Positions 1,987 through 18,818 of a DNA stretch of 20,967 nt are shown here, piece by piece. Below the pieces are notes generated by a model that saw nothing but the letters and a program-made list of their open reading frames with translations, ran no database searches and had not been told where the DNA came from. Made by a program: the position numbers and the translations under genes. Numbering within the stretch: position 1 is the stretch's first letter; each line of letters starts with the position of its first letter. The DNA comes from a virus. The stretch is from IMG/VR virus record IMGVR_UViG_3300034062_005631, positions 1 through 20,967 of that record; one strand, written 5' to 3'.

Positions 1987-2508
1987 ATGACTAAGCAAAG
2001 TCCACGTATTTACGTATATAAAATTATCTTTTTAGAGATTCCACATTATTATTTTGGATCTCACAAAGAAAAATATTTTAATGAATTTTACCTAGGTTCT
2101 CCAGTAACTAATAAGGACGTTTGGGTTTTTTATACTCCTATAAAAGAAATAATTAAGGAATTTCCATTTACAGATGAGGGGTACATTGAGGCTAGAAATT
2201 ATGAAGATAGTTTAATTGAACCCGTTTATAAAACGGACCCATTTTGTTTAAATGAGGCATGTAAAGGTAGAATGACTATAAATTCCTGCAGAAGAGGAGG
2301 ACAAAAAACAGGAAAATACCATTATGAAAACGGTACAGGCATATTTTCTTTAACCACAGAAGAAAAACGTGAAGTCAGTAGAAAAAATGGACAAACTCAT
2401 TATGAAAATGGTACAGGTATATTTTCTATAACCCCAGAAGAAAAACGTGAAATTAGTCGAAGAGTTGGACAAACTCATTATGAAATGGGACTAGTATTTT
2501 TTCTTTAA
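1987..2508 (+). CDS. N-terminal part of the frameshifted endonuclease (173 aa)
   Basis: This is the open part of the broken endonuclease as it reads today. It keeps the whole GIY-YIG-like N-terminal module (about residues 1-110) and two full repeat units, enters the third, then runs out of frame into MGLVFFL and stops at 2506-2508. If made, it would be a catalytic domain with a shortened DNA-binding tail. No Shine-Dalgarno sequence is visible, and the start lies just after the right arm of a long inverted repeat. The first ATG (MTKQSPRIYVYK) aligns with the paralogue MKNKSPRIYTYK, which supports the start. Confidence 0.65.
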   Translation: MTKQSPRIYVYKIIFLEIPHYYFGSHKEKYFNEFYLGSPVTNKDVWVFYTPIKEIIKEFPFTDEGYIEARNYEDSLIEPVYKTDPFCLNEACKGRMTINSCRRGGQKTGKYHYENGTGIFSLTTEEKREVSRKNGQTHYENGTGIFSITPEEKREISRRVGQTHYEMGLVFFL

Positions 2509-3023
2509 CTGATGAAGAAAGGCGAGAAAATTGTAGAAAAGGGGGACAAACAAATAAAGAAAATGGAACTGGTATTTGTGGAATGTCAAAAGAACAGCTA
2601 CAGGAAAATGGAAGAAATTCCGCAAGGAAATGTAAAGAAAGAGGAACTGGAATTTTTGGAATGACCCCAGAAGAAAAACGTGAACGTAGCAGCAAAGTAG
2701 GACAAAAACACAAAGAAAATGGAACTGGAATTTTTGGAATGACCCCGGAAGAAAAGAGAGAGGCTAGTAAAAAAGGAGCACAAACAAATAAAGAAAATGG
2801 AACTGGATTATATGGAATTTCACCAGAACAAAGAAAAGAACATGGTAGAAAAAATGGGCAAAAATCCCATGAGAATAAAACTGGACTTTTTGCTATGGCC
2901 CCGGAGGAAAAAACACAGGCGGGAAAAAGAGGAGCCCAAACCCAGATGGAGAAGGGTATTGGAATTTTTGGGAGAACTAAAGAAGAACAAAGAAAAAATG
3001 CTGCTAATGGATTACACGCTCAA
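2323..3023 (+). repeat. Nine tandem 78-nt coding repeats (26-residue NUMOD3-like units)
   Basis: Units start at 2323, 2401, 2479, 2556, 2634, 2712, 2790, 2868 and 2946. Spacing is exactly 78 nt, except 77 nt for the third unit, which carries the one-base deletion. The unit consensus is roughly ENGTGIFGMTPEEKREx followed by SRKGGQTHK. The G-[IL]-x-x-[MIL]-[ST]-x-E-[EQ]-[KR]-[KR] core recalls NUMOD3-type DNA-binding motifs of homing endonucleases. The paralogue at 6542 has only one such unit, so the array grew by unequal recombination or slippage. The repeats are coding and in phase, so this is not a CRISPR array. Confidence 0.9.
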
Positions 3024-3128
3024 AGGTGGCAATGCACCGTTACTGGTTATGTTACTACGTCGGGTCCACTTACAGGATACCAAAAAGCCAGAGGCATCGA
3101 CACCTCTAACCGCATAAGAATTCAATAG
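2583..3128 (+). CDS. C-terminal repeat fragment of the frameshifted endonuclease (181 aa)
   Basis: The frame opens within repeat unit 3 and first offers an ATG at 2583. The 181-residue product would consist of the later 26-residue repeats (part of unit 4 to unit 9) and the family C-terminal module WQCTVTGYVTTSGPLTGYQK...DTSNRIRIQ. It has no nuclease domain. Whether it is translated alone is doubtful, since no ribosome-binding site is seen before the ATG. It is best read as the downstream half of the broken endonuclease. Confidence 0.5.
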   Translation: MSKEQLQENGRNSARKCKERGTGIFGMTPEEKRERSSKVGQKHKENGTGIFGMTPEEKREASKKGAQTNKENGTGLYGISPEQRKEHGRKNGQKSHENKTGLFAMAPEEKTQAGKRGAQTQMEKGIGIFGRTKEEQRKNAANGLHAQRWQCTVTGYVTTSGPLTGYQKARGIDTSNRIRIQ

Positions 3129-4172: not shown

Positions 4173-4753
4173 TGTCCCCTTTTGAAGTTTATGAAATGTA
4201 TCTGGCCATAAAGATGCATTTCACCCAGCCGTCTTATGATTATTTCAAGTATTCTGGTAAGGTCAAATCAAACATCGAATCATTTAATAAAAGAAAGGAC
4301 AGATACTTCTTTGAAAAACTCTCAAGAAAAAAGGCCAGAAAAGACGTTTTGGATTATTTTGTTTCAAACTTTATAGAATCTTCTGATCCTTCTAAAATGT
4401 GGGTCGGGGAAATGAAGACCTCTGGTGAGGATAATTACCTAAAATGGAAAGGGCGGGTTCATTCTTTTACTTATTTGTTTGAGTCTGATTTAAACACTTT
4501 AACGGAGGATTGTCATCTTTATGAGGCTATTGTTTCAAAATCAGGCCATCCAAAAATCATAAAGTCCTATCTGGCAGGGAGGATCTGTTTAGAATCAATT
4601 GTTGTTATGGATGACCTGACGAAGTTTATGAGTAAGTTATCTGGGTCTTATGATCCTGTTTTAGATGTTATTCGGGCCAGGGTTAGTAAGTACAGGCCAT
4701 TTTTTGTTTACGATAAGGATTCTGCTGTTCGTGTGATTAGGAGTAAAATGTGA
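4172..4753 (+). CDS. 59: gp59-like loader of the replicative helicase
   Basis: The 193-residue product resembles T4 gp59 along its length (217 aa in T4). The N-terminal part FEVYEMYLAIKMHF...YDYFKYSGKV, the KRKDRYFFEKLS segment (about residues 41-52) and MWVGEM correspond to conserved stretches of gp59. gp59 binds fork DNA, gp32 and gp41 and loads the gp41 helicase at replication forks. Its position between gp33 and gp32 supports this. Start and stop overlap both neighbours (TAATG upstream; TGATG at 4751-4755 downstream), implying coupled translation. Confidence 0.9.
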   Translation: MSPFEVYEMYLAIKMHFTQPSYDYFKYSGKVKSNIESFNKRKDRYFFEKLSRKKARKDVLDYFVSNFIESSDPSKMWVGEMKTSGEDNYLKWKGRVHSFTYLFESDLNTLTEDCHLYEAIVSKSGHPKIIKSYLAGRICLESIVVMDDLTKFMSKLSGSYDPVLDVIRARVSKYRPFFVYDKDSAVRVIRSKM

Positions 4754-5088
4754 TGGAGTATGGAACGAAAGCGAAATTAGCAGAGCGTGCTGATACTCCT
4801 ATTGAAGTTTTAGAGAAATTAGCGGCTGATGAAGAGTGGATGGTTCGCGGTCGGGTTGCATCAAACCCAAGTACACCACAAAAATCTTTAGAACTCCTGG
4901 CAACTGATAAAAATCCTGATGTTCGCGGTCGGCTTGCATCAAACCCAAGTACGCCGCTAAAAACATTAGAACTCCTGGCGACCGATGAAAATTCTTGGGT
5001 TCGCTACTGGACTGCACAAAACCCGAACAGAAACGAACTAATCGAACGACTGGTTCTTATGACTAATTATAAACTGGGGGTGGGCTGA
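4753..5088 (+). CDS. LRV-repeat protein A (variant leucine-rich repeats), 111 aa
   Basis: The protein is built from 26-residue repeats of the form VRGRVASNPSTPxKxLELLATDxNPD, matching the LRV (variant leucine-rich, HEAT-like solenoid) pattern R-x2-A-x-N-P-x-T-P-x2-x-L-x2-L-A-x-D. DNA repeat starts are seen at 4843, 4921 and 4999 with an exact 78-nt period. It lacks the cysteine cluster that binds iron-sulfur in the Azotobacter LRV protein. The ATG at 4753 overlaps the gp59 stop; a GTG at 4750 would add one residue. Solenoids of this type usually bind protein. Its place among replication genes suggests a partner there, but no function is known to me. It is the first of a tandem pair. Confidence 0.75.
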   Translation: MEYGTKAKLAERADTPIEVLEKLAADEEWMVRGRVASNPSTPQKSLELLATDKNPDVRGRLASNPSTPLKTLELLATDENSWVRYWTAQNPNRNELIERLVLMTNYKLGVG

Positions 5089-5498
5089 TGGATTATGACA
5101 CAAAACTAGAATTGGCAAGGAGTCATGATACTCCTATCGAGATTTTAGAAGAGTTGGCTGTTGATGAAAGTTGGGAGATTCGTGGCGAGGTTGCAACAAA
5201 CTCAAATACTCTAGCAAAAACTTTAAAACTTCTAGCAACTGATAAAAATAATTTGGTTCGCAGAAGGGTCGCAAAAAACCCAAACACCCCAGTGGAAATT
5301 CTGCAACAATTAGCGACTGATATATCATGGATCGTTCGCGCCTGTACTGCAGAAAATCCAAACATACCATTAGAAATTCTTGAACAATTAGCGACTGATA
5401 AAGATTCTGATGTTCGCTACTGGGTTGTGCAACATCCAAACCGAACCGAACTTATCGAACGACTGGTTCTTATGACCAATTATAAGTCGGCTAAATAG
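5088..5498 (+). CDS. LRV-repeat protein B (136 aa), tandem paralogue of the gene before
   Basis: This is the same family as the preceding gene, with one more repeat: TPIEILEELAVDESWEIRGEVATNSNT and further units of 26 residues. Both proteins end in NPNR or HPNR followed by xELIERLVLMTNYK. A 23-nt block is identical between the two genes (5041-5063 and 5454-5476), showing a fairly recent duplication or continued conversion. The ATG overlaps the upstream stop (TGATG, 5086-5090). One Cys in the IVRACTAENP stretch is not part of a metal cluster. The function is unknown. The end of the gene overlaps a CTAAATA motif before the gp32 leader. Confidence 0.75.
   Translation: MDYDTKLELARSHDTPIEILEELAVDESWEIRGEVATNSNTLAKTLKLLATDKNNLVRRRVAKNPNTPVEILQQLATDISWIVRACTAENPNIPLEILEQLATDKDSDVRYWVVQHPNRTELIERLVLMTNYKSAK
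5490..5497 (+). promoter_or_regulatory. Possible late-promoter motif (GCTAAATA)
   Basis: The motif overlaps the stop codon of the second LRV gene, 77 nt before gp32. It resembles the phage late octamer, and a late promoter could add gp32 synthesis late in infection. Support is weak because the motif is short and spans common coding bases. Confidence 0.25.
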
Positions 5499-10144: not shown

Positions 10145-10876
10145 ATGGCCATTAAAGCAAGACCATTATCAGAAATAAAATCTAAACTTTTAAGGCCAGC
10201 GACGACTAGTCATTTTGAATGCAATTTTGTTATTCCTGAAAAGGTAGTAAGATTTATAGGACAACGTGGTGTTATTCTTGATAGAGAATTAATAAACCTC
10301 AGCTGCTGTGATGCTTCTCTTCCGGGGTCTACTCTTAATACGGCAACTCTTACTGATTCTTATACAGGTGTTACTGAAAATTATGCTTATAGGAGAGCCT
10401 ATGATAATCGGGCCGATTTTAGTTTTTATGTCGATTATAATCCGGAAAAAACTCCTTACTCTGTAATTTTGGTATTTGAAAATTGGATTGCATTTGCAGC
10501 AGGAGAAAATAATAAAGCAAGATTAGACGATTTAAACTATTTTTATAGAGTAAATTTTCCATCTAATTATATCGCCAGACAATTTACGATTAAAAAATTT
10601 GAAAAAGATTATAAAAAATACATAGAATATACTTTTATAAATTCATTCCCACTTTCAATTTCATCAATGCCGGTTTCTTATGAGGGATCTCAAGTATTAA
10701 AATTTACTGTTTCCTTTTCATATCAAAGATACGTTCTAGGTAGTTTAACTGGCCCCGGTGTACCGGAACCACCACCGGCCCCGCAACTTCCACCGCCCAC
10801 TACACCGCAAGGTCAACAACAATCTCCTACGGCACCCATAGTTAGCGAGGCTTTTAGGTTACCGACAGTGGCCTAA
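10145..10876 (+). CDS. 54: Tail-tube-fold protein, probable gp54-like tube initiator
   Basis: The 243-residue protein has a tail-tube-like fold pattern: CCDASLPGSTLNTATL followed by the phrase ENYAYRRAYDNRADFSFYVD, then VILVFENWIAF and a late SYEGSQVLKFTVSFSYQRYV strand. These are features shared by gp19, gp54 and gp48. The position next to gp4 and before gp26, in a baseplate context, favours gp54 (first ring of the tail tube on the baseplate) over the main tube protein gp19. The T4 gp54 is longer (320 aa). The last about 40 residues are a proline/glutamine-rich, probably disordered tail. A late-promoter motif lies 22 nt upstream of the ATG. The exact paralogue (gp54 or gp19-like) is not settled by sequence reading. 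Confidence 0.7.
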   Translation: MAIKARPLSEIKSKLLRPATTSHFECNFVIPEKVVRFIGQRGVILDRELINLSCCDASLPGSTLNTATLTDSYTGVTENYAYRRAYDNRADFSFYVDYNPEKTPYSVILVFENWIAFAAGENNKARLDDLNYFYRVNFPSNYIARQFTIKKFEKDYKKYIEYTFINSFPLSISSMPVSYEGSQVLKFTVSFSYQRYVLGSLTGPGVPEPPPAPQLPPPTTPQGQQQSPTAPIVSEAFRLPTVA

Positions 10877-10908: not shown

Positions 10909-11631
10909 ATGGCTCTTCCTATTGTTAATGCTCCTGAATACTTCCTTGAACTCCCTTCAAACGGAAAGAAAGTAAAATATCGTCCTTTTGTCGTAAGAGA
11001 AGAAAAGGTTCTTCTACTTGCCCTTGAATCCGAGGACGTTGCTGAAATGTCCAATGCGGTGAAAAATGTCCTGACTAGTTGCGTAAAAGGCGATAATCTT
11101 AATATTGAAACCCTCCCGACTTTTGACATTGAATATCTGTTCCTCAATATCCGAGGAAAGGCAGTTGGAGAAGAGATTGAATTGGAACTTCTTTGCCCCG
11201 ACGATGGTGAGACTTATGCAAAAACCAAGATCTTTATTGATGAAATCAAGGTCAAAAAAGACCCGACCCATACAAATAAAATAAAGATCAATGATGACCT
11301 GATGATGGAAATGAAGTATCCATCACTTGAGCAGTTTATTAAATCCAACTTTAACTTTGAAGACCGTAAAAATCAACTAGAGCAATCAATTGAACTAATC
11401 GCAGCCTGTGTTGATAAAATTTATAATCAAGAAGAAGTCTGGACTTCTTCTGACGTGACAACTCAAGAAATTATTGATTTTCTTGAGAATCTAAATTCCA
11501 CCCAGTTCAGTGAGATTGAAAAGTTCTTTGAGACCATGCCAAAACTAGAGCATAAGGTACAACTTAAAAACCCAAAAACAGAAGTAGAGAGTACCATTAC
11601 ACTTGCAGGGCTAACCGATTTTTTCGGATAG
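10909..11631 (+). CDS. 26: Baseplate hub/tail chaperone-type protein gp26-like
   Basis: The 240-residue protein matches the T4 baseplate protein family that includes gp26 and gp51. Typical parts are the opening PEYFLELPSNGKKVKYRPF and VREEKVLLLALES (about residues 9-41), IETLPTFDIEYLFLNIRGKAVGE (split here; about 65-87) and the C-terminal LAGLTDFFG. gp26 takes part in hub assembly. The family is thought to be related to tail assembly chaperones of long-tailed phages; I hold this from memory. The last sense codons are GAT TTT TTC GGA before TAG, forming a U UUU UUC slippery heptamer at 11619-11625. The -1 frame is open through the stop into the next short ORF. Confidence 0.88.
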   Translation: MALPIVNAPEYFLELPSNGKKVKYRPFVVREEKVLLLALESEDVAEMSNAVKNVLTSCVKGDNLNIETLPTFDIEYLFLNIRGKAVGEEIELELLCPDDGETYAKTKIFIDEIKVKKDPTHTNKIKINDDLMMEMKYPSLEQFIKSNFNFEDRKNQLEQSIELIAACVDKIYNQEEVWTSSDVTTQEIIDFLENLNSTQFSEIEKFFETMPKLEHKVQLKNPKTEVESTITLAGLTDFFG

Positions 11632-11652
11632 GTCTCAGCCATATGGATCTGA
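11619..11652 (+). promoter_or_regulatory. Candidate -1 ribosomal frameshift site
   Basis: The heptamer T TTT TTC (11619-11625) is in the gp26 reading phase, two codons before the stop. After a 9-nt spacer, TCAGCC (11635-11640) can pair with GG (11645-11646) and CTGA (11649-11652), making a small bulged hairpin that could stall ribosomes. A slip of -1 continues without a stop into the frame of the ORF at 11643-11810, giving a fusion of about 300 residues. The heptamer, phase and open frame are seen directly. The use of the site is inferred. Confidence 0.55.
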
Positions 11653-11810
11653 TGTCTTACTATAAATTAAATTTTAGTCTGGCCCAGTTTCATAAATGGT
11701 CAATATCAGAAATAGAAAACTTTATTCCTTATGAACGTGAACTTTATGTGATAATGCTGAATCAACACATCGAGGAAGAAGAACAAAAACAAAAAGCCCT
11801 GTCCCCATAA
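11643..11810 (+). CDS. Short ORF after gp26 (52-55 aa), gp26/gp51-associated, possible frameshift extension
   Basis: The frame starts at ATG 11643 or ATG 11652 and ends at TAA 11808-11810, abutting the next ATG. The product MSYYKLNFSLAQFHKWSISE followed by IENFIPYERELYVIML and an acidic helix resembles the short ORF that follows gp26 in T4-like cyanophages (my recollection). IPYERELYVIML recalls the end of tail chaperone extensions (T part of lambda gpGT). No convincing ribosome-binding site precedes either ATG. It lies in the -1 frame relative to gp26, and that frame is open back to 11568. It may therefore be translated as an extension of gp26, as a separate small protein, or both. Confidence 0.75.
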   Translation: MDLMSYYKLNFSLAQFHKWSISEIENFIPYERELYVIMLNQHIEEEEQKQKALSP

Positions 11811-14399
11811 ATGTCAATCAGAAACAAGTTAGACGCACTTAAAAGAATACTTGGGGCCGAGAACTTTTTTCTGGCCGAGGCATTTATTGACAAAAATTTA
11901 AAACCACTAAAGATCAGAAAGAACTCTAATCTTTATGTTGCGGCTGTTGAATATATTGGCACATTAATTCAAGAAGGAAAGCAAATATTATCAGATAAAG
12001 AGGCCGAAACCTTATCCAAAGACAACACAAAAAAGACTGTTGGTACTGTTCATAAAAGGCTAAAGAAAGAGTTCGATAATCTTGTAAAAATAAACCAAAT
12101 AATAGAAGGAGAAAAGAAAGAACCAGCAAGAACTGCCACTAAACCTTTACCCGATCCAATCCCGGCTGCTGCGGCAAAAAAAGAACCGCCAGAAGTAACT
12201 CTTGAGGCCGATCAAAAAAGAGTCCAAAAAGGCGGCTATGCAACAGTAACCTGGGTATCTAAAAATGCGGCCAGGATATCAAGAACAGACATTCCAGGAG
12301 TAACGTCAAGATCTCCTTTGAGTGGTTCTATAGAAGTCAAGGACATAAGAAGGAGACGGGATCTTTATATTGTTGTTGAATCTTTAGATGGTCAAAAGGC
12401 CGAGGCCAAGACTCAAATTTTTGTTGAGACCCAAGATTATCAAAGGAAAAGAGAGAAAGGAATAGTCGATGAAGAACCTCCTACTCCACAACCAAGACAA
12501 CCATCAATTAATCTGGTCAGCCCTTCTTCTAGACCCCAACCAGAGCCAAGAAGGCGGCCAACACCGGATGCCGAATCTTCTAATATAAACACCAATATTC
12601 TAGTCAGTATTGAGAAGTCCCTTACAAATATTTCTAGGGTTCTTGCCTCTCAATTGAGGTTAGGTCAAAGAATTTTTGATACCGAAAGAAAGGCAGCCGA
12701 GGCCGCAAATCGGCTCAAAAAAGAAGAGCAAATGGAGGCAAAAGATGAGGGTCCTTCTGGAACTTCTCTGATGAAGGCCGGGGCCGAAAAGATGCTTTCG
12801 CCATTTAAGGCCATTATTGATAAGATCATTAACTTTTTGGTCTTTACATTTTTGGGCCGGGCCTTTACTGAGATCATAAAATGGATGAATGATCCGGCAA
12901 ATAAAGGAAAGGTTGATGCCCTAGGAAAATTCTTAAAGGCCGCCTGGCCAATTCTTCTTGGACTTTCTGTACTATTTTTGACACCTTTAGGTAGTTTTAT
13001 TTTAGGAACTGTCCAGTTTTTGACCGGAACCGCCAAGACCTTAAAGGGTCTAAAAAGATTAATTGATAAACTTATTTTCAAGAAAGGAGCCAAGCCGCCA
13101 GTAAAAGGTAGTCCAGGTACTGCTGGTAAACCTAAGGTAACAGTAAGCGGGGAAACTCAGGCCAGAGGACCATTTGCAAGGAAATTCCCAATATCTGGGG
13201 ATGTCCAACCGAGAGGTTCTAGATTACCCAAGATTCCATCTTTAAAAGGAATTGGTCGCGGAAATTTAGTTACTGCGGCTATAACAACACTTGCTTCAAT
13301 GTTTATGCCGCAAATTCAGAGTGCTGTTGGTGGTGTATATGGAGGCATGGGGCTTGGTGTTCAAAATTTAACTGATGATCAATTAGCAGAAGAAATTAAA
13401 AATGAATCTAAGATAAAAGATGATCCTTTTGGTAGACTCAGGCTATTACAGGAAGAAGCCGAACGAAGACAAAAGAAATTTTCATCGGGTGGCCAGATAT
13501 TCTCAGGTCTCGTGACAGAAAAAGACGGAATAAAAGTATCTGGCGCAGGAAAAGATACTCAAGCATTCCCTGTTATGGGTGGTGGAACAGCAGTTCTTCA
13601 ACCAGGGGAAGTCGTTCTTAATAAGCAAGGTGTAAAAAACGCACTTTCTATAGGAATAGATCCATTAAAACTAAACACTGGACCAAATGCAAATAAACCG
13701 GCTAATATAACAACCGGAATAAAGGCCATGAAATCAGGTGGGGTTGTTGGTGGTATGAATATGATGCCAAGAATGAAGACACCATCAATGAATTTAAATT
13801 CTATTAAAAACATCACCAACAGGCCAACGAATTTAAATGTCAACAATAATATGACAATGAGGAATTCTAGCCCAATGAGTGGGGGTTCTTCATATAAACC
13901 AATGAGATCATCAACTCCTATGATGAGTAATTATTCGTCAATGAACAATAAACCAATGAGATCATCAACTCCTATGATGAGCAATTATTCATCAAGAACT
14001 GCACCCAGGTCAATGTCCTCTGGTATTTCTATGACCAGGCCATTTACTCCTCAACCTAGAACTTATGAATCAACAAGTCCATATATTAGAAAACCAGAAC
14101 AAACTTCTTATTTTAGTTCTTACGATAAAATAGCCAGATCAACATCTACTGTTTATCAAACTTCAAATAATTTTCAGGCAGTAAGATCAACACCAACTCT
14201 TACCGCACCACCCCCTATTACTAGAAGAAATAGATCTGAACCAATTATCCTGCCGCCAATAACCCAAGGTGCTAATATGGTTGGATCATCGGCTACTGGT
14301 TCTGGCACCCAGATTCCATCCTTTGGGGCCACTTGTCCATCATCAAGTGCTGCAACGGCCAGAAAAATCCTATGTGACACTTACGGAATAATTGCCTAA
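11811..14399 (+). CDS. Large tail protein 1 (862 aa), candidate tape-measure or tail-lumen protein
   Basis: No named T4 homologue is recognised. In order one sees a helical N-terminus (1-100); an Ig-like beta domain (about 127-205, with TVTWVSKNAARIS and SGSIEV phrases); a proline/arginine-rich linker; a coiled-coil-like helix (about 265-312); and a hydrophobic stretch of about 70 residues (335-405) with FLVFTFLG. Then comes a glycine-rich LQPGEVVLNKQ motif (about 597-607) common in tail-associated proteins, and a Met/Asn/Ser-rich low-complexity region with an 18-residue duplication. Two Cys are near the C-terminus. Its place after gp26 and before gp27 is where long-tailed phages carry the tape measure. 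The function is inferred from length, hydrophobic core and position. The ATG directly follows the previous TAA. Confidence 0.75.
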   Translation: MSIRNKLDALKRILGAENFFLAEAFIDKNLKPLKIRKNSNLYVAAVEYIGTLIQEGKQILSDKEAETLSKDNTKKTVGTVHKRLKKEFDNLVKINQIIEGEKKEPARTATKPLPDPIPAAAAKKEPPEVTLEADQKRVQKGGYATVTWVSKNAARISRTDIPGVTSRSPLSGSIEVKDIRRRRDLYIVVESLDGQKAEAKTQIFVETQDYQRKREKGIVDEEPPTPQPRQPSINLVSPSSRPQPEPRRRPTPDAESSNINTNILVSIEKSLTNISRVLASQLRLGQRIFDTERKAAEAANRLKKEEQMEAKDEGPSGTSLMKAGAEKMLSPFKAIIDKIINFLVFTFLGRAFTEIIKWMNDPANKGKVDALGKFLKAAWPILLGLSVLFLTPLGSFILGTVQFLTGTAKTLKGLKRLIDKLIFKKGAKPPVKGSPGTAGKPKVTVSGETQARGPFARKFPISGDVQPRGSRLPKIPSLKGIGRGNLVTAAITTLASMFMPQIQSAVGGVYGGMGLGVQNLTDDQLAEEIKNESKIKDDPFGRLRLLQEEAERRQKKFSSGGQIFSGLVTEKDGIKVSGAGKDTQAFPVMGGGTAVLQPGEVVLNKQGVKNALSIGIDPLKLNTGPNANKPANITTGIKAMKSGGVVGGMNMMPRMKTPSMNLNSIKNITNRPTNLNVNNNMTMRNSSPMSGGSSYKPMRSSTPMMSNYSSMNNKPMRSSTPMMSNYSSRTAPRSMSSGISMTRPFTPQPRTYESTSPYIRKPEQTSYFSSYDKIARSTSTVYQTSNNFQAVRSTPTLTAPPPITRRNRSEPIILPPITQGANMVGSSATGSGTQIPSFGATCPSSSAATARKILCDTYGIIA
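13894..14001 (+). repeat. Two tandem 54-nt coding repeats in large tail protein 1
   Basis: Copies at 13894-13947 and 13948-14001 share their first 34 bases exactly and are nearly identical for about 50. They encode NKPMRSSTPMMSNYSS-type units in a low-complexity Met/Ser/Asn-rich region. Confidence 0.8.
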
Positions 14400-17296
14400 T
14401 GGACCCGTCTAAATTCTTTAACCGAAAAATAAACATAAGAAACCCCAAGACTCCTTATCAACAGGGAAAGTTTGTTGATGAGTCGCAGAATTATTCCAAT
14501 AGAATTTCGTCTAGGATAAATCAATCACCATTAACCAAGTCTCTTTTTTCTTTAAGGAACAAAGTATTTCAGATTGAGAATTTATTAAATGGTATTTTTA
14601 GCCTAGACAAAAAGAGACAAGAACAAGGTAAAAAGATAAAGGCAGCCGAAGTACCTGATAAAAAACCAAAAACCAAAGGCCCCCAAATTTTTGGTAAACT
14701 TATACAGAAACCTAAAACAGGAGCCCTTGGACTAATAAAAGATTTTGTCACATTTACATTTTTAGGTTGGCTATTTACAAAATTACAACCACTACTTGGT
14801 GGCCTAACAAAACTTGCTCCATTATTGGAAGGAATGGCCTGGTTTATTGGCGGAACAATTAAAAATATGGTCGATGTATTTGCCACATTTTTAAAACTTG
14901 GTTTTGACGCAAAAGAGAAATTTGATAATATAGTCGCGGACATAAAAAAGAATACAAAAGGAATAGACAAAACGTTTGATGCAACCTTAAATCCATTAAA
15001 GGCAGTTTTTGATGGTGTAATACAACTGGCCAATTCGTTTTTAATTACTTCAGTAAAGGCCGATGAATTAAACGAGGCTAAAACTCAACTATTCAAAGAA
15101 CAGACTGTCGATACTGTTCCGGCAATGCCTCCCCTACCAAAGGTGGATGAGCCTCAGATGCCACAAACATCCGACCCATTTCCGACTCCCCAAACGAATC
15201 CAGGAGTCGTTCAAAAATTCAATACTGGTGGTGTCATTCGTGGTTATAATGAGGGAGGACGAATTGATCCGAGAACTCCTGTAACTCGCGGGGTCGAAAG
15301 ACAAAGAAGAGAAGTACCCAAACCAAAACCAATTATTCAACCACAAAAAACGGCCCCAGGCAAGGACGTCGGCGGTGATAAAAAGATTAAACAATTATAC
15401 GATCAAACAGCTGCCAGTAGTATTGCTGATTTTATTCCACTTCCTTCTTTCTTTAGGTCTGATAAAAAGAGTGGTTTTGCGGCCCTGATGGGGGCGTCTG
15501 AAGAATATAAAAAACCAATGACCAATGATATTCTTGGAATTGGTAATATGATGGGCGCTTCTGTTGATTCTGCCCTGGGTCAGAAAATAGAAAAGAAATC
15601 TTATACTCAATTTGCAGACGGTATTAAGTATTTGGTTAATTATGGTAGAACCGAGCCAGAAGAGTTTGCAAAACTTGATCTTGAAGATATGGTAAGAAAG
15701 ATTGTTGAGCCAAGAGTAAACATGGCGATCAATCGAATTCAAGAAGAGATTAATAAAAAAGGAAAAGTTGAGGTGGATTCGGGTGATGGTGGTGGAGGTG
15801 GACTTGACTTTGGTGGGGATGTTGGAGATTATGCTGATTTGATTGCATTAATAGTTGCTGAAGAAAGTGCTGGCCATGGTGGCTATGAGGCATTTAATAC
15901 TGGTGGTTATGGTAGTGCGCCTAGTGGCTCCGCGAACTCCATTAACACTCCAGTTGGTGGAATTTTAAAACCTTTAACACAAAGGACAGTTAAAGATATT
16001 ATGAATATGCATAATAGACGGCAAATACATGCTACAGGAAGATATCAAATAATTGCAACTACTTTACGTGGATTAATTAGTGGGGCATACGGTCAAACTG
16101 GTGTAAGTGAAAATGATTTATATGACGCTGCAACACAAGATAAACTCGCTATTGCATTAATAAAAAATAGACTAAAAGATCCTACTCTTCAAAATTTTAG
16201 AGATGAATGGACTGGATTAGAAAAGGTTCCTGATAATGTTTTAAAGGCCGCTATAGAAAAGGCAAAAATTGGTAGGTTATACAATGTAAGTGATATTCTT
16301 TCTAGTAATTTAAAAGGCTTAGTATTACATTCTGGACCAGGGGGCCTCATTCAAGGTGGATCTGGAAGTAGAGGGGAAGCTGATTATGCGGTTCACTTTC
16401 ATCTTGACACTAAAAATCCAAATCCAACTAAAGAAGAATTAGCAAATGTGAGGGAAGTTGCTTTTAAAGCTGTGAAAATAATGCTTGCTAGGGGCTCTAA
16501 AGTATATTTTGGTAATGTAAAGGAATATGCGTCTAATGATGATAATACACTTAAGAGGCAGATTGCGGAAGATCAGAGAAGACACGCTCAACGAAGTACT
16601 CCAGGTGTTGATATTCAAGAAATAAACTCTAATGTGGGGCCAACTATTAAAGGGCTACCCGGCTCTAGAATTGCTTTCCCATTTGCTGTTGGTCATGTTT
16701 ATAGAAAGGGTGGTTATGGCAGGGAAGCTGAAATTATAGGTTCTGGGGGTGTGGTAGTCTCACATGGAGCAGCTGGTTCAGCCGCGAGTATTGTGCAGCG
16801 ACCACAACAAACACGCTCTCAACAACTCCAGGCACCAAGACAAGCTCCTAGAACCTCCTCTTCTGGTCCTTTAACTCCACTAGCATCATCTGATAGAAGA
16901 GGATTTTTGATCAACAACCAAATGTATTATGTGGATCTTAAAACTGGATTTATTACTAATTCTCAAGGTAAAACGATAAATGATGAAGCCATAGGTAAGG
17001 TTATATTACAAAGATTAACTCCTGGTGATAGACAAAAATTAGAAAAATTAAAAAATCAAAAGGGGTCTCAAAATATTCCCTGGTGGGGAAGAATGCTTCC
17101 GGGAATATCATCAATCAAACCTAATTTACCAGCCGACAAATACGCTTCTTATGAACAACCAGATTCACAAGAACGACTAATCGCCATTCAACCAGTTATC
17201 ATGAATAACCCAATTCCGGTTCCTGTTTCATCTGGTCCTGTTGCATACGCCCTTCCTAGAATAAGTAATCTTAATACACCAATACCAATATCATAA
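14399..17296 (+). CDS. Large tail protein 2 (965 aa) with lysozyme-like domain
   Basis: The first 230 residues have a helical start and a hydrophobic stretch (about 110-215) with FVTFTFLGWLF, matching FLVFTFLGRAF of the preceding protein, so the two share a module. FNTGGVIRGYNEGG (274-287) is a tail-protein-type Gly motif. Residues about 477-600 look like a lysozyme/muramidase fold: LIALIVAEESAGHGGYEAFN with a candidate catalytic Glu488 or 489, then ATGRYQIIATTL (545-556) and YDAATQDKLAIALIKNR (575-591). Further on, an H-F-H-L-D motif (666-670) and QRSTPGVDIQ (731-740) suggest a second enzyme-like or binding domain that I cannot name. It probably degrades peptidoglycan locally during DNA injection. 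Both ends overlap neighbours (TAATG), so it belongs to the hub gene block. Confidence 0.8.
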   Translation: MDPSKFFNRKINIRNPKTPYQQGKFVDESQNYSNRISSRINQSPLTKSLFSLRNKVFQIENLLNGIFSLDKKRQEQGKKIKAAEVPDKKPKTKGPQIFGKLIQKPKTGALGLIKDFVTFTFLGWLFTKLQPLLGGLTKLAPLLEGMAWFIGGTIKNMVDVFATFLKLGFDAKEKFDNIVADIKKNTKGIDKTFDATLNPLKAVFDGVIQLANSFLITSVKADELNEAKTQLFKEQTVDTVPAMPPLPKVDEPQMPQTSDPFPTPQTNPGVVQKFNTGGVIRGYNEGGRIDPRTPVTRGVERQRREVPKPKPIIQPQKTAPGKDVGGDKKIKQLYDQTAASSIADFIPLPSFFRSDKKSGFAALMGASEEYKKPMTNDILGIGNMMGASVDSALGQKIEKKSYTQFADGIKYLVNYGRTEPEEFAKLDLEDMVRKIVEPRVNMAINRIQEEINKKGKVEVDSGDGGGGGLDFGGDVGDYADLIALIVAEESAGHGGYEAFNTGGYGSAPSGSANSINTPVGGILKPLTQRTVKDIMNMHNRRQIHATGRYQIIATTLRGLISGAYGQTGVSENDLYDAATQDKLAIALIKNRLKDPTLQNFRDEWTGLEKVPDNVLKAAIEKAKIGRLYNVSDILSSNLKGLVLHSGPGGLIQGGSGSRGEADYAVHFHLDTKNPNPTKEELANVREVAFKAVKIMLARGSKVYFGNVKEYASNDDNTLKRQIAEDQRRHAQRSTPGVDIQEINSNVGPTIKGLPGSRIAFPFAVGHVYRKGGYGREAEIIGSGGVVVSHGAAGSAASIVQRPQQTRSQQLQAPRQAPRTSSSGPLTPLASSDRRGFLINNQMYYVDLKTGFITNSQGKTINDEAIGKVILQRLTPGDRQKLEKLKNQKGSQNIPWWGRMLPGISSIKPNLPADKYASYEQPDSQERLIAIQPVIMNNPIPVPVSSGPVAYALPRISNLNTPIPIS

Positions 17297-18612
17297 TGTC
17301 AAATTTAGCCGCACTTGGCGGAAAAGGCCAACTACAAGAACTCCGATTAATCTCTAACTATTCAGGGGATCTTAATCTCACTGATGGTTTTATTGAGATG
17401 ATTCTTTATGAGAGTGTTCTTGATTACTCAACCAGGGCAACACTTTCTTTTGTAGACACTGGTTACAGACCAAATAAATCTGGAACCGCCGCAATGGAAT
17501 CCGGTGATATTAATCTTGTTTCTGGTGAACAATTTGAATTTAAGGCGACTGATGGGTATGATCAGGTCCTAGAGTGCAAAAATAATTACCGAATGATTAC
17601 TGATGCAATTCATTCAGTAGACGAGCAAGTAAACAAAACAATAATTTCCCTTTCTTTTGCATCACAAGAGCACATAACAAACGACTTTGTAAAAAACAGA
17701 CTAACAAAAAGATACGAAGGAAAAATATCTGATTCTGTCTTTAGGATCCTATCAGAATTCACAACAAAACCAGTAGATATTGATCAGACCCTAAATGAAT
17801 TTGTCTTTAATGGAGACAACGAAAAGCCATTTTATAGAATACCCTGGCTTGCCAAAAAATCAGTACCAGACGTACCAAATGCAAAAGAAAACCTGGCCGG
17901 GTATTTCTTTTATGAGACTTTTTATGATGGAACCTTTGGTGGTTATCGATTTAAATCTATTGATAAATTGTGGGCAAATCCAGCAAAAAGAAAGTTAATT
18001 TATAATGATCTGGTAACAATACCTCCTGGTTATACTGGAAAGATATTTGCATATTCGTTTGATAATTCTTTAAGTCTAAGTAAAATGGCCAAGTCTGGTG
18101 TATTTTCTACCCAGCAATTAAAAACATTTGACTTTATAACAAATGCAAGAACAGTATCCGATAAATCGGATGTTGACCGGTTAAGTACTAATTATACTGG
18201 CGGCCTTGAACCACCTAAAATTGCATCCCATCTAGATTTTTGGAATACCCAAACAAGAATCAGTGAATCAATTGTTGATCGTGGGGTTCTTCCGCCTGGA
18301 ACGAATTTAGAACAGCAACTTAAGTTTTTAGATCGACTCAATTTTAATGAAGAAGAAATTTTAAGACAATCTTGTGCTAGGTATAATAACCTATTCACTG
18401 TTAAATTATCAGTGACTATTGCAGGAGACTTTGGAATTCATGCAGGAGATATTATAGAATGCGATTTTCCTGAGGTTTCATCCAAGGCAAATAAAATTGT
18501 CAGTAATAAAAAAAGTGGTAGATACATGGTGATTGACGTTGCTCATCGAATTCATGCAAATGGGTATTATACCACCCTAAATATGGCAAGGGAAAGCATT
18601 TACAAAAAATGA
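17296..18612 (+). CDS. 27: Baseplate hub subunit gp27-like
   Basis: The 438-residue protein fits gp27 of T4-like cyanophages. It begins LQELRLISNYSGDLNLTDGFIEM and DYSTRATLSFVDTGY, has the long beta-rich middle, and ends with IHAGDIIECDFPEV followed by SGRYMVIDVAHRI. gp27 trimers form the central hub ring below the tail tube and hold the gp5 spike, and its folds recur in type VI secretion VgrG proteins. It is coupled to both neighbours: TAATG with the lysozyme-like gene and ATGA with the next small gene. It is normal in length (T4: 391 aa). Confidence 0.9.
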   Translation: MSNLAALGGKGQLQELRLISNYSGDLNLTDGFIEMILYESVLDYSTRATLSFVDTGYRPNKSGTAAMESGDINLVSGEQFEFKATDGYDQVLECKNNYRMITDAIHSVDEQVNKTIISLSFASQEHITNDFVKNRLTKRYEGKISDSVFRILSEFTTKPVDIDQTLNEFVFNGDNEKPFYRIPWLAKKSVPDVPNAKENLAGYFFYETFYDGTFGGYRFKSIDKLWANPAKRKLIYNDLVTIPPGYTGKIFAYSFDNSLSLSKMAKSGVFSTQQLKTFDFITNARTVSDKSDVDRLSTNYTGGLEPPKIASHLDFWNTQTRISESIVDRGVLPPGTNLEQQLKFLDRLNFNEEEILRQSCARYNNLFTVKLSVTIAGDFGIHAGDIIECDFPEVSSKANKIVSNKKSGRYMVIDVAHRIHANGYYTTLNMARESIYKK

Positions 18613-18818
18613 CACTTCAAGAACATATAAAAACTAATGAGAAAGAGCTTTCTGATCCCATGATCAGTTCTCAACGTAGGAGGCATCTTTCTTCTGAATT
18701 GGTTGATCTTCTAAAATACCAGTCGGAAAATCCAACAGTCTCTAAAGACCCCACGGCACTAGAACTCTTTTGTTATTTTAATCCTTCAGAACTTGAATGT
18801 AAGATCTTTAATCTATGA
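18609..18818 (+). CDS. Small conserved-type protein between gp27 and gp5 (69 aa)
   Basis: This helical, charged protein starts at an ATGA overlap with gp27 and ends at an ATGA overlap with gp5 (18815-18818), so it is translated within the hub operon. The stretches MISSQRRRHLSSELVDLLKY and DPTALELFCYFNPSELECKI are like a small hypothetical protein I associate with this place in T4-like cyanophages (from memory, not searched). No domain is recognised. Possible roles are a chaperone or linker in gp27-gp5 hub assembly, on position only. Confidence 0.8.
   Translation: MTLQEHIKTNEKELSDPMISSQRRRHLSSELVDLLKYQSENPTVSKDPTALELFCYFNPSELECKIFNL

Follow-up and report, generated by a model that had tools for sequence, protein, structure and literature searches.

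A conserved slippery heptamer near the end of gene 26 points to a frameshifted tail assembly chaperone in T4-related cyanophages

Introduction

Tail assembly chaperones of the lambda G/GT kind occur in two forms that are made in a fixed ratio, bind the tape measure and tail tube proteins and are absent from the virion; they are encoded between the genes for the tail tube and the tape measure. In lambda gpG/gpGT, as in other long-tailed phages, a short reading frame carries a -1 slip site near its 3' end, which in lambda is the heptamer G GGA AAG; the second lambda reading frame follows in the -1 frame, just before the large tail genes.

In the available part of a 2016 review, this G-T frameshift is conserved in long-tailed phages 'except T4' (PMC5009743). 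For T4 itself, the accessible sections of a 2010 review describe gp26 and gp51 as chaperones of hub assembly, with gp51 essential and of unknown function, and state that genetic studies support gp26 as a component of the hub and not only as a chaperone (PMC3004832). Vladimirov, Gautam and Davidson (Virology, 2022) identified the tail chaperone genes of T4-like phages, according to passages of two papers that cite them (PMC10885494, PMC12846349). The first of these, the PRFect paper, refers to that study for some T4-like phages in which a short gene and a fused long gene take the place of frameshifting (PMC10885494, in the part available), and the second, a 2025 paper on phage Adele, refers to it for -1 signals of poly-T type in the chaperone genes of T4-like phages. 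The available text of the Adele paper also describes, in Vandenendeviridae and Andersonviridae, a conserved poly-T site with a -1 frame open in every genome examined there, and a downstream reading frame that was mistaken for a separate gene (PMC12846349).

Here we analyze a comparable locus in a virus record of 20,967 bases (IMGVR_UViG_3300034062_005631; the window, hereafter), a fragment of a T4-related cyanophage that, judged by gp26, is closest among named phages to Synechococcus phage B23 (76% identity over 240 residues). The locus resembles lambda gpG/gpGT in its short frame with a -1 slip site near the 3' end and in its second frame just before large tail genes, but differs in its heptamer, T TTT TTC, and in its protein family, PF12322. 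It shares the poly-T site and the open -1 frame with the Adele system, as far as the text of that paper is available, but that system belongs to other phage families and has a GTTTTT motif (PMC12846349). With T4 gp26/gp51 it shares both PF12322 and the same extra C-terminal domain, whereas the short gene and fused long gene of T4 are replaced by one gene and a putative frameshift.

Results

A slippery heptamer in phase near the end of gp26

The gp26 gene of the window ends GAT TTT TTC GGA TAG, with one sense codon, GGA, between the TTC of the heptamer and the stop (Table 1). An earlier note on this DNA had pointed to an in-phase T TTT TTC near the gp26 stop, to a -1 frame open from position 11568 that becomes the frame of the next short reading frame (11643-11810, gp51), and to a fusion of about 300 residues, and all three were confirmed from the sequence: no stop interrupts the -1 frame between 11568 and 11807, and the predicted -1 product comprises 239 + 61 = 300 residues, against 240 for gp26. 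The heptamer alone is not rare, as TTTTTTC occurs 17 times on the two strands of the window versus 21.7 expected in shuffles; what goes beyond chance is its phase, its place, its conservation and its synonymous freeze.

Table 1. Features of the gp26 junction and its surroundings in the window.
Feature	Coordinates	Strand	Evidence
Upstream gene, tail tube family	10145-10876	+	PF23849 (1.6e-11); phrog_45, tail tube
gp26, putative short tail assembly chaperone, zero-frame product, 240 aa	10909-11631	+	PF12322 (231 bits); phrog_150
Slippery heptamer T TTT TTC	11619-11625	+	In phase; conserved; synonymous ratios 0.00 and 0.02
Predicted -1 frame C-terminal (T-like) domain, 61 aa plus stop	11625-11810	+	Open -1 frame; phrog_634; HMM match to T4 gp51
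Zero-frame TAG stop of gp26, passed by the -1 frame	11629-11631	+	
ATG, possible independent gp51 start	11643-11645	+	ATA in L004
862-aa reading frame downstream, candidate tape measure	11811-14399	+	Position only

The tail tube family gene lies directly 5' of gp26, and two large reading frames of 862 and 965 residues lie 3' of the junction. The 862-residue frame gave no informative Pfam match and falls in phrog_35029, which has no known function there. In the 965-residue frame (14399-17296), residues of about 460-620 match endolysin and tail-lysozyme PHROGs. A protein search found a single PF12322 copy in the window, which is itself a fragment.

Several other features of the window were recorded. 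A 69-residue frame amid the tail genes (18609-18815) matches CP12 above the Pfam cut-off (29.7 bits, E 1.1e-6) and also phrog_627, of unknown function (E 3e-18); it may represent a small conserved protein of phages and not a metabolic CP12 gene. At 4750-5498, two adjoining genes of leucine-rich-repeat-variant (LRV) repeats overlap stop to start. A repeat protein of the type NGTGIFGMTPEEKRE is encoded at 1987-3128; it is open in frame from 1987 to 2508, and its repeats continue in the -1 frame to 3128, with the frame break at a T run near 2496-2503; this may be gene disruption, an error in sequencing or another frameshift.

The heptamer and the open -1 frame are conserved across relatives

Relatives were gathered from IMG/VR, two of the searches contributing the best 80 of 599 and the best 80 of 570 matches, and from 14 named phages, using search patterns that excluded the junction itself. 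This gave 273 records including the window; four whose contigs end before the gp26 stop (L236, L257, L258 and L273) were dropped, and the remaining 269 yielded 224 distinct junctions (L084 is a copy of the window). Among these best IMG/VR matches and 14 named phages, 222 of the 224 junctions have T TTT TTN in frame among the final ten codons of gp26, as TTTTTTC in 209, TTTTTTT in 10 and TTTTTTG in 3. The heptamer is separated from the stop by one codon in 197 of the 222, by none in 14, and by two, three or eight codons in 2, 4 and 5, respectively. All 222 of these junctions have a -1 frame free of stops over the slip site, and it continues for 158-215 nt past the gp26 stop where the contig end does not cut it. 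The arrangement of one gene with a putative -1 shift was found in Kyanoviridae, Emdodecavirus, Pootjesviridae, Menderavirus and several genera of Straboviridae.

The two junctions that lack the heptamer belong to Vibrio phages K413 and 1.244.A. A search of a phage collection with gp26 returned 709 records at E 1e-3, and the junction was read in 19 named records of the one-gene type, 15 of which carry the heptamer. In the other four (K413, 1.244.A, Salmonella phage Vi01 and Dickeya phage RC-2014), the domain is kept in the -1 frame although T TTT TTN is absent, and these four form one supported group in the protein tree (99/99). Among them (L315, which is Vi01; L316, which is RC-2014; L090; L093), one junction, for example, reads GAA ATT TTC ATT TAA; these phages may use another slip site or re-initiation.

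Selection at the slip site appears to act on nucleotides

Phe codons elsewhere in gp26 are 72% TTT and 28% TTC (n=2417), and other Phe-Phe pairs in gp26 take the form T TTT TTC/T in only 9/222 cases, 2 of them T TTT TTC. We compared observed with expected synonymous differences at 227 gp26 codons, using 1500 pairs drawn from the 211 sequences with zero or one codon between heptamer and stop. The two Phe codons of the heptamer had ratios of 0.00 and 0.02, the lowest of all 227; the third lowest was codon 3 (0.06), against a median of 0.86, and Gly 234 and Leu 235, close by, stood at 1.04 and 1.00. These comparisons indicate that selection at the slip site acts on the nucleotides, beyond keeping Phe-Phe.

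The -1 domain often lacks a nearby start codon

The reading frame that follows gp26 matches phrog_634, 'baseplate hub assembly catalyst' (E 1.4e-21 for 11643-11807), with a weak match (E 0.029) to the C-terminal portion of the gp26 family, phrog_150. Start codons were counted at 216 loci, after setting aside six loci cut inside the -1 frame (L020, L067, L126, L151, L171 and L184) and the two that lack the heptamer. Of these loci, 155 have an ATG in frame no more than 30 nt beyond the gp26 stop and 61 do not, and in 46/216 there is no ATG, GTG or TTG in the -1 frame within 20 nt past the stop, although the domain is kept. Across the 18 nt before any start in those 46 loci (29 distinct sequences), synonymous codon differences stood at 15.4% in the -1 frame versus 7.1% and 7.4% in the two other frames, as raw pair counts uncorrected for relatedness. 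The window itself has an ATG in the -1 frame 11 nt after the gp26 stop codon; in L004, which is 93% identical and the nearest IMG/VR relative among the best 80 of 599, that ATG is replaced by ATA and the frame is still open. With start codons often missing nearby and a coding appearance of the -1 frame ahead of any start, translation of the domain seems to proceed by way of the shift. A related count at all 216 loci, limited to the initial 12 nt (18.5% synonymous versus 4.4% and 3.0%) and likewise uncorrected for relatedness, was discarded as evidence, many of these stretches containing an ATG.

Public annotation lists gp51 of relatives as a separate gene. In six records (L087, L315, L320, L085, L091 and L090) the annotation of the -1 domain is missing, late or different: it is unannotated in LPCS28, Vi01 and Aeromonas 65.2, annotated from a late internal ATG in Melnitz-2 and IC12, and replaced by another reading frame in K413.

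The -1 domain corresponds to the extra C-terminus of T4 gp51

T4 gp26 (215.6 bits) and T4 gp51 (177.5 bits) both match PF12322 over its full length, and the extra C-terminus of T4 gp51 (residues 147-246) matches phrog_634 (1.2e-23). An HMM of the cyanophage -1 domain found the gp51 C-terminus in 11/11 T4-type loci (E 4e-7 to 1e-3); in those T4-type gp51 proteins that were examined, the domain is joined in frame to the rest of the protein. Run against 11 further named records, this HMM matched eight at E below 1e-5 and 1.244.A weakly (0.034), and gave no match at E <= 1 in Stenotrophomonas phage Ps15, in which the heptamer is present, or in K413. The gp26 ends of T4-type phages carried no T TTT TTN in any of the 10 that could be read among the 11 loci. 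PF12322 occurs once in all 14 of the 14 named one-gene-type records (12 with the heptamer, two without) and twice in T4 and in 6/7 T4-type contigs; in the seventh, the IMG/VR contig L282, gp51 is broken into two parts that lie in different reading frames, owing to decay or misassembly.

In an unrooted tree of 51 proteins with long end branches, one branch (support 95/94) parts 37 one-gene proteins from 14 T4-type proteins. The T4-type gp26 proteins do not form one clade, as gp26 of Klebsiella phage phi1_146002 groups with gp51 (92/85). In that phage (L317, 2501-3794), a gp26-like gene comes after a gp51-like gene that bears the extra domain, both on one strand, unlike T4, where genes 26 and 51 are divergent. 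The tree fits a single duplication on the T4 side without proving its direction, and one switch between frameshift and duplication would be the simplest reading.

The predicted fold of gp26 is chaperone-like

The PF12322 match of gp26 in the window lies far above the family cut-off of 24.5 bits, and its AlphaFold model has a pLDDT of 85.2. Foldseek alone gave no significant match of this model in the PDB (E 0.89). A second aligner run against 920 chains placed 3fgx in its first row (Z 8.0) and the HK97 tail assembly chaperone 2ob9 in its second (Z 7.8, rmsd 3.9, 84 aligned of 107 residues), followed by 3klu (YqbN; Z 6.9) and 5ir0 (5.3) and then a drop to 3.8; by the aligner's own caveat a Z of 7-8 can reflect a common arrangement, yet the top four rows are clear of the rest. 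We take 3fgx and 3klu to be prophage proteins of the tail-chaperone kind. Against predicted viral structures, the named best matches were phage baseplate hub or hub chaperone proteins. The modelled fold of the short form resembles that of the HK97 tail assembly chaperone. A model of a T4-type gp51 (pLDDT 90.1) found nothing convincing in the PDB, the best match being C1QBP at Z 5.1 with no tail chaperone among the rows listed, and a T4-type gp51 profile found nothing convincing among PDB sequences (best E 0.11).

RNA structure 3' of the site is strong in some relatives

RNAalifold returned no consensus structure for either the 54 distinct window-like or the 74 distinct P-SSM2-like sequences. 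Explicit stems were traced in part of each group, a 5-bp hairpin being intact in 31/54 window-like sequences and 10 or 11 of 11 pairs being kept in 42/74 P-SSM2-like ones. Single-sequence folds 3' of the site were strong in S-PM2 (z -3.99) and P-SSM2 (z -3.94) and not significant in B23 (z -1.25), R11Z (-0.71) or the window. The earlier note had placed a small hairpin at 11635-11652, and this was not supported: the 72 nt from 11618 fold with a z of +0.80, 160 of 200 shuffles being at least as good, and 80 nt beginning further 3' reach -1.44. Stretches of 70 nt at the 216 loci had a mean z of -1.98. In a profile in 60-nt steps, only the P-SSM2-like group stood out just 3' of the heptamer (mean z -1.93), the window-like group, at -0.82, being no lower there than over the rest of its own profile, and the remaining group standing at -0.45.

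These folds support a stimulatory hairpin for some relatives and not for the window. As the window has no significant 3' structure and no consensus structure was found, its frameshifting may be weak or may need little help. A Shine-Dalgarno-like 4-mer precedes the heptamer by no more than 18 nt at 160/222 junctions; we do not claim it as a stimulator, because the conserved Glu-Gly-Leu codons could produce it.

Discussion

We propose, with a probability that we put at roughly 0.92, that gp26 is the short form of a tail assembly chaperone and that some ribosomes slip by -1 on T TTT TTC to give a long form, T4 using two genes instead. Most ribosomes would stop at the gp26 TAG and release the 240-residue form. 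A minority would slip back by one base on the heptamer, where the two Phe tRNAs would re-pair with TTT TTT; reading on past the stop in the -1 frame, these ribosomes would append 61 residues and so make the 300-residue form. The added domain would be what the annotation of relatives calls gene gp51. If the two forms behave like lambda gpG and gpGT, the shorter would coat the tape measure protein, and recruitment of the tail tube protein would fall to the longer. In T4 and its close relatives, the two forms would come from two genes, 26 (short) and 51 (long).

The chief alternative is that gp51 is an independent small protein with no fusion, translated from a start at 11643 or through re-initiation downstream of the gp26 stop. 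This would agree with the ATG close behind the stop in the window and in 155/216 loci, with the overlapping stop-start TAATG or TGATG of several relatives, and with the gene of its own that public records annotate. However, it leaves the frozen heptamer unexplained, and it sits poorly with the 46/216 loci that have no start codon within 20 nt, with the loss of ATG 11643 in L004 while the frame stays open, with the coding appearance of the pre-start stretch in the -1 frame, and with the in-frame fusion of the domain in the T4-type gp51 proteins examined; we regard it as quite improbable.

That RNA polymerase slips on the T run and produces mRNAs in the other frame is suggested by the run of six T at the site, but six T is short for polymerase slippage, and the run ends in C in 209/222 junctions although TTT is the commoner Phe codon. 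A run ending in C fits tandem tRNA slippage and not a demand for a longer T run, which makes the polymerase a very improbable agent of the shift. Least credible is a coincidence of heptamer and open -1 overlap: that TTTTTTC is not enriched in the window would be in keeping with chance, yet neither its presence at 222 of the 224 distinct junctions nor the synonymous freeze is what chance would leave.

A ribosomal -1 frameshift is thus our preferred reading. The earlier note had proposed a gpG/gpGT-like shift here, and its case is strengthened by the invariant site, the synonymous suppression, the open -1 frame, the start-poor domain and the chaperone-like fold; the alignment of related genes that it suggested returned T TTT TTN and an open -1 frame at nearly all junctions, together with suppressed synonymous change at both Phe codons. 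Its remark that no report was known for T4-type gp26 is weakened by the 2022 Virology paper, which, in the passages that cite it, identified T4-like tail chaperone genes. Such frameshifts are well known in other tailed phages and, judging from the available parts of the literature, have probably been noted for T4 relatives already. Vladimirov et al. 2022 aside, we recognized no description of this frameshift in cyanophages in a search that covered sources in part, and the cyanophage site is possibly described in that paper.

We lean towards a history in which one gene with a -1 shift is ancestral and the commonest arrangement in T4-related phages, T4 genes 26 and 51 derive from a single duplication with loss of the slippery site, and a separate cyanophage gp51 protein does not exist. 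The relatives suggest that the exception 'except T4', as worded in the available part of the 2016 review (PMC5009743), is perhaps confined to the T4 branch. The junctions collected here form a large natural set for testing the slip site and its stimulators, and in practical terms annotation should treat gp51 of these phages as the C-terminal portion of a gp26 frameshift product. For T4 itself, the relatives suggest that gp26 and gp51 may be read as the short and the long form of a tail assembly chaperone.
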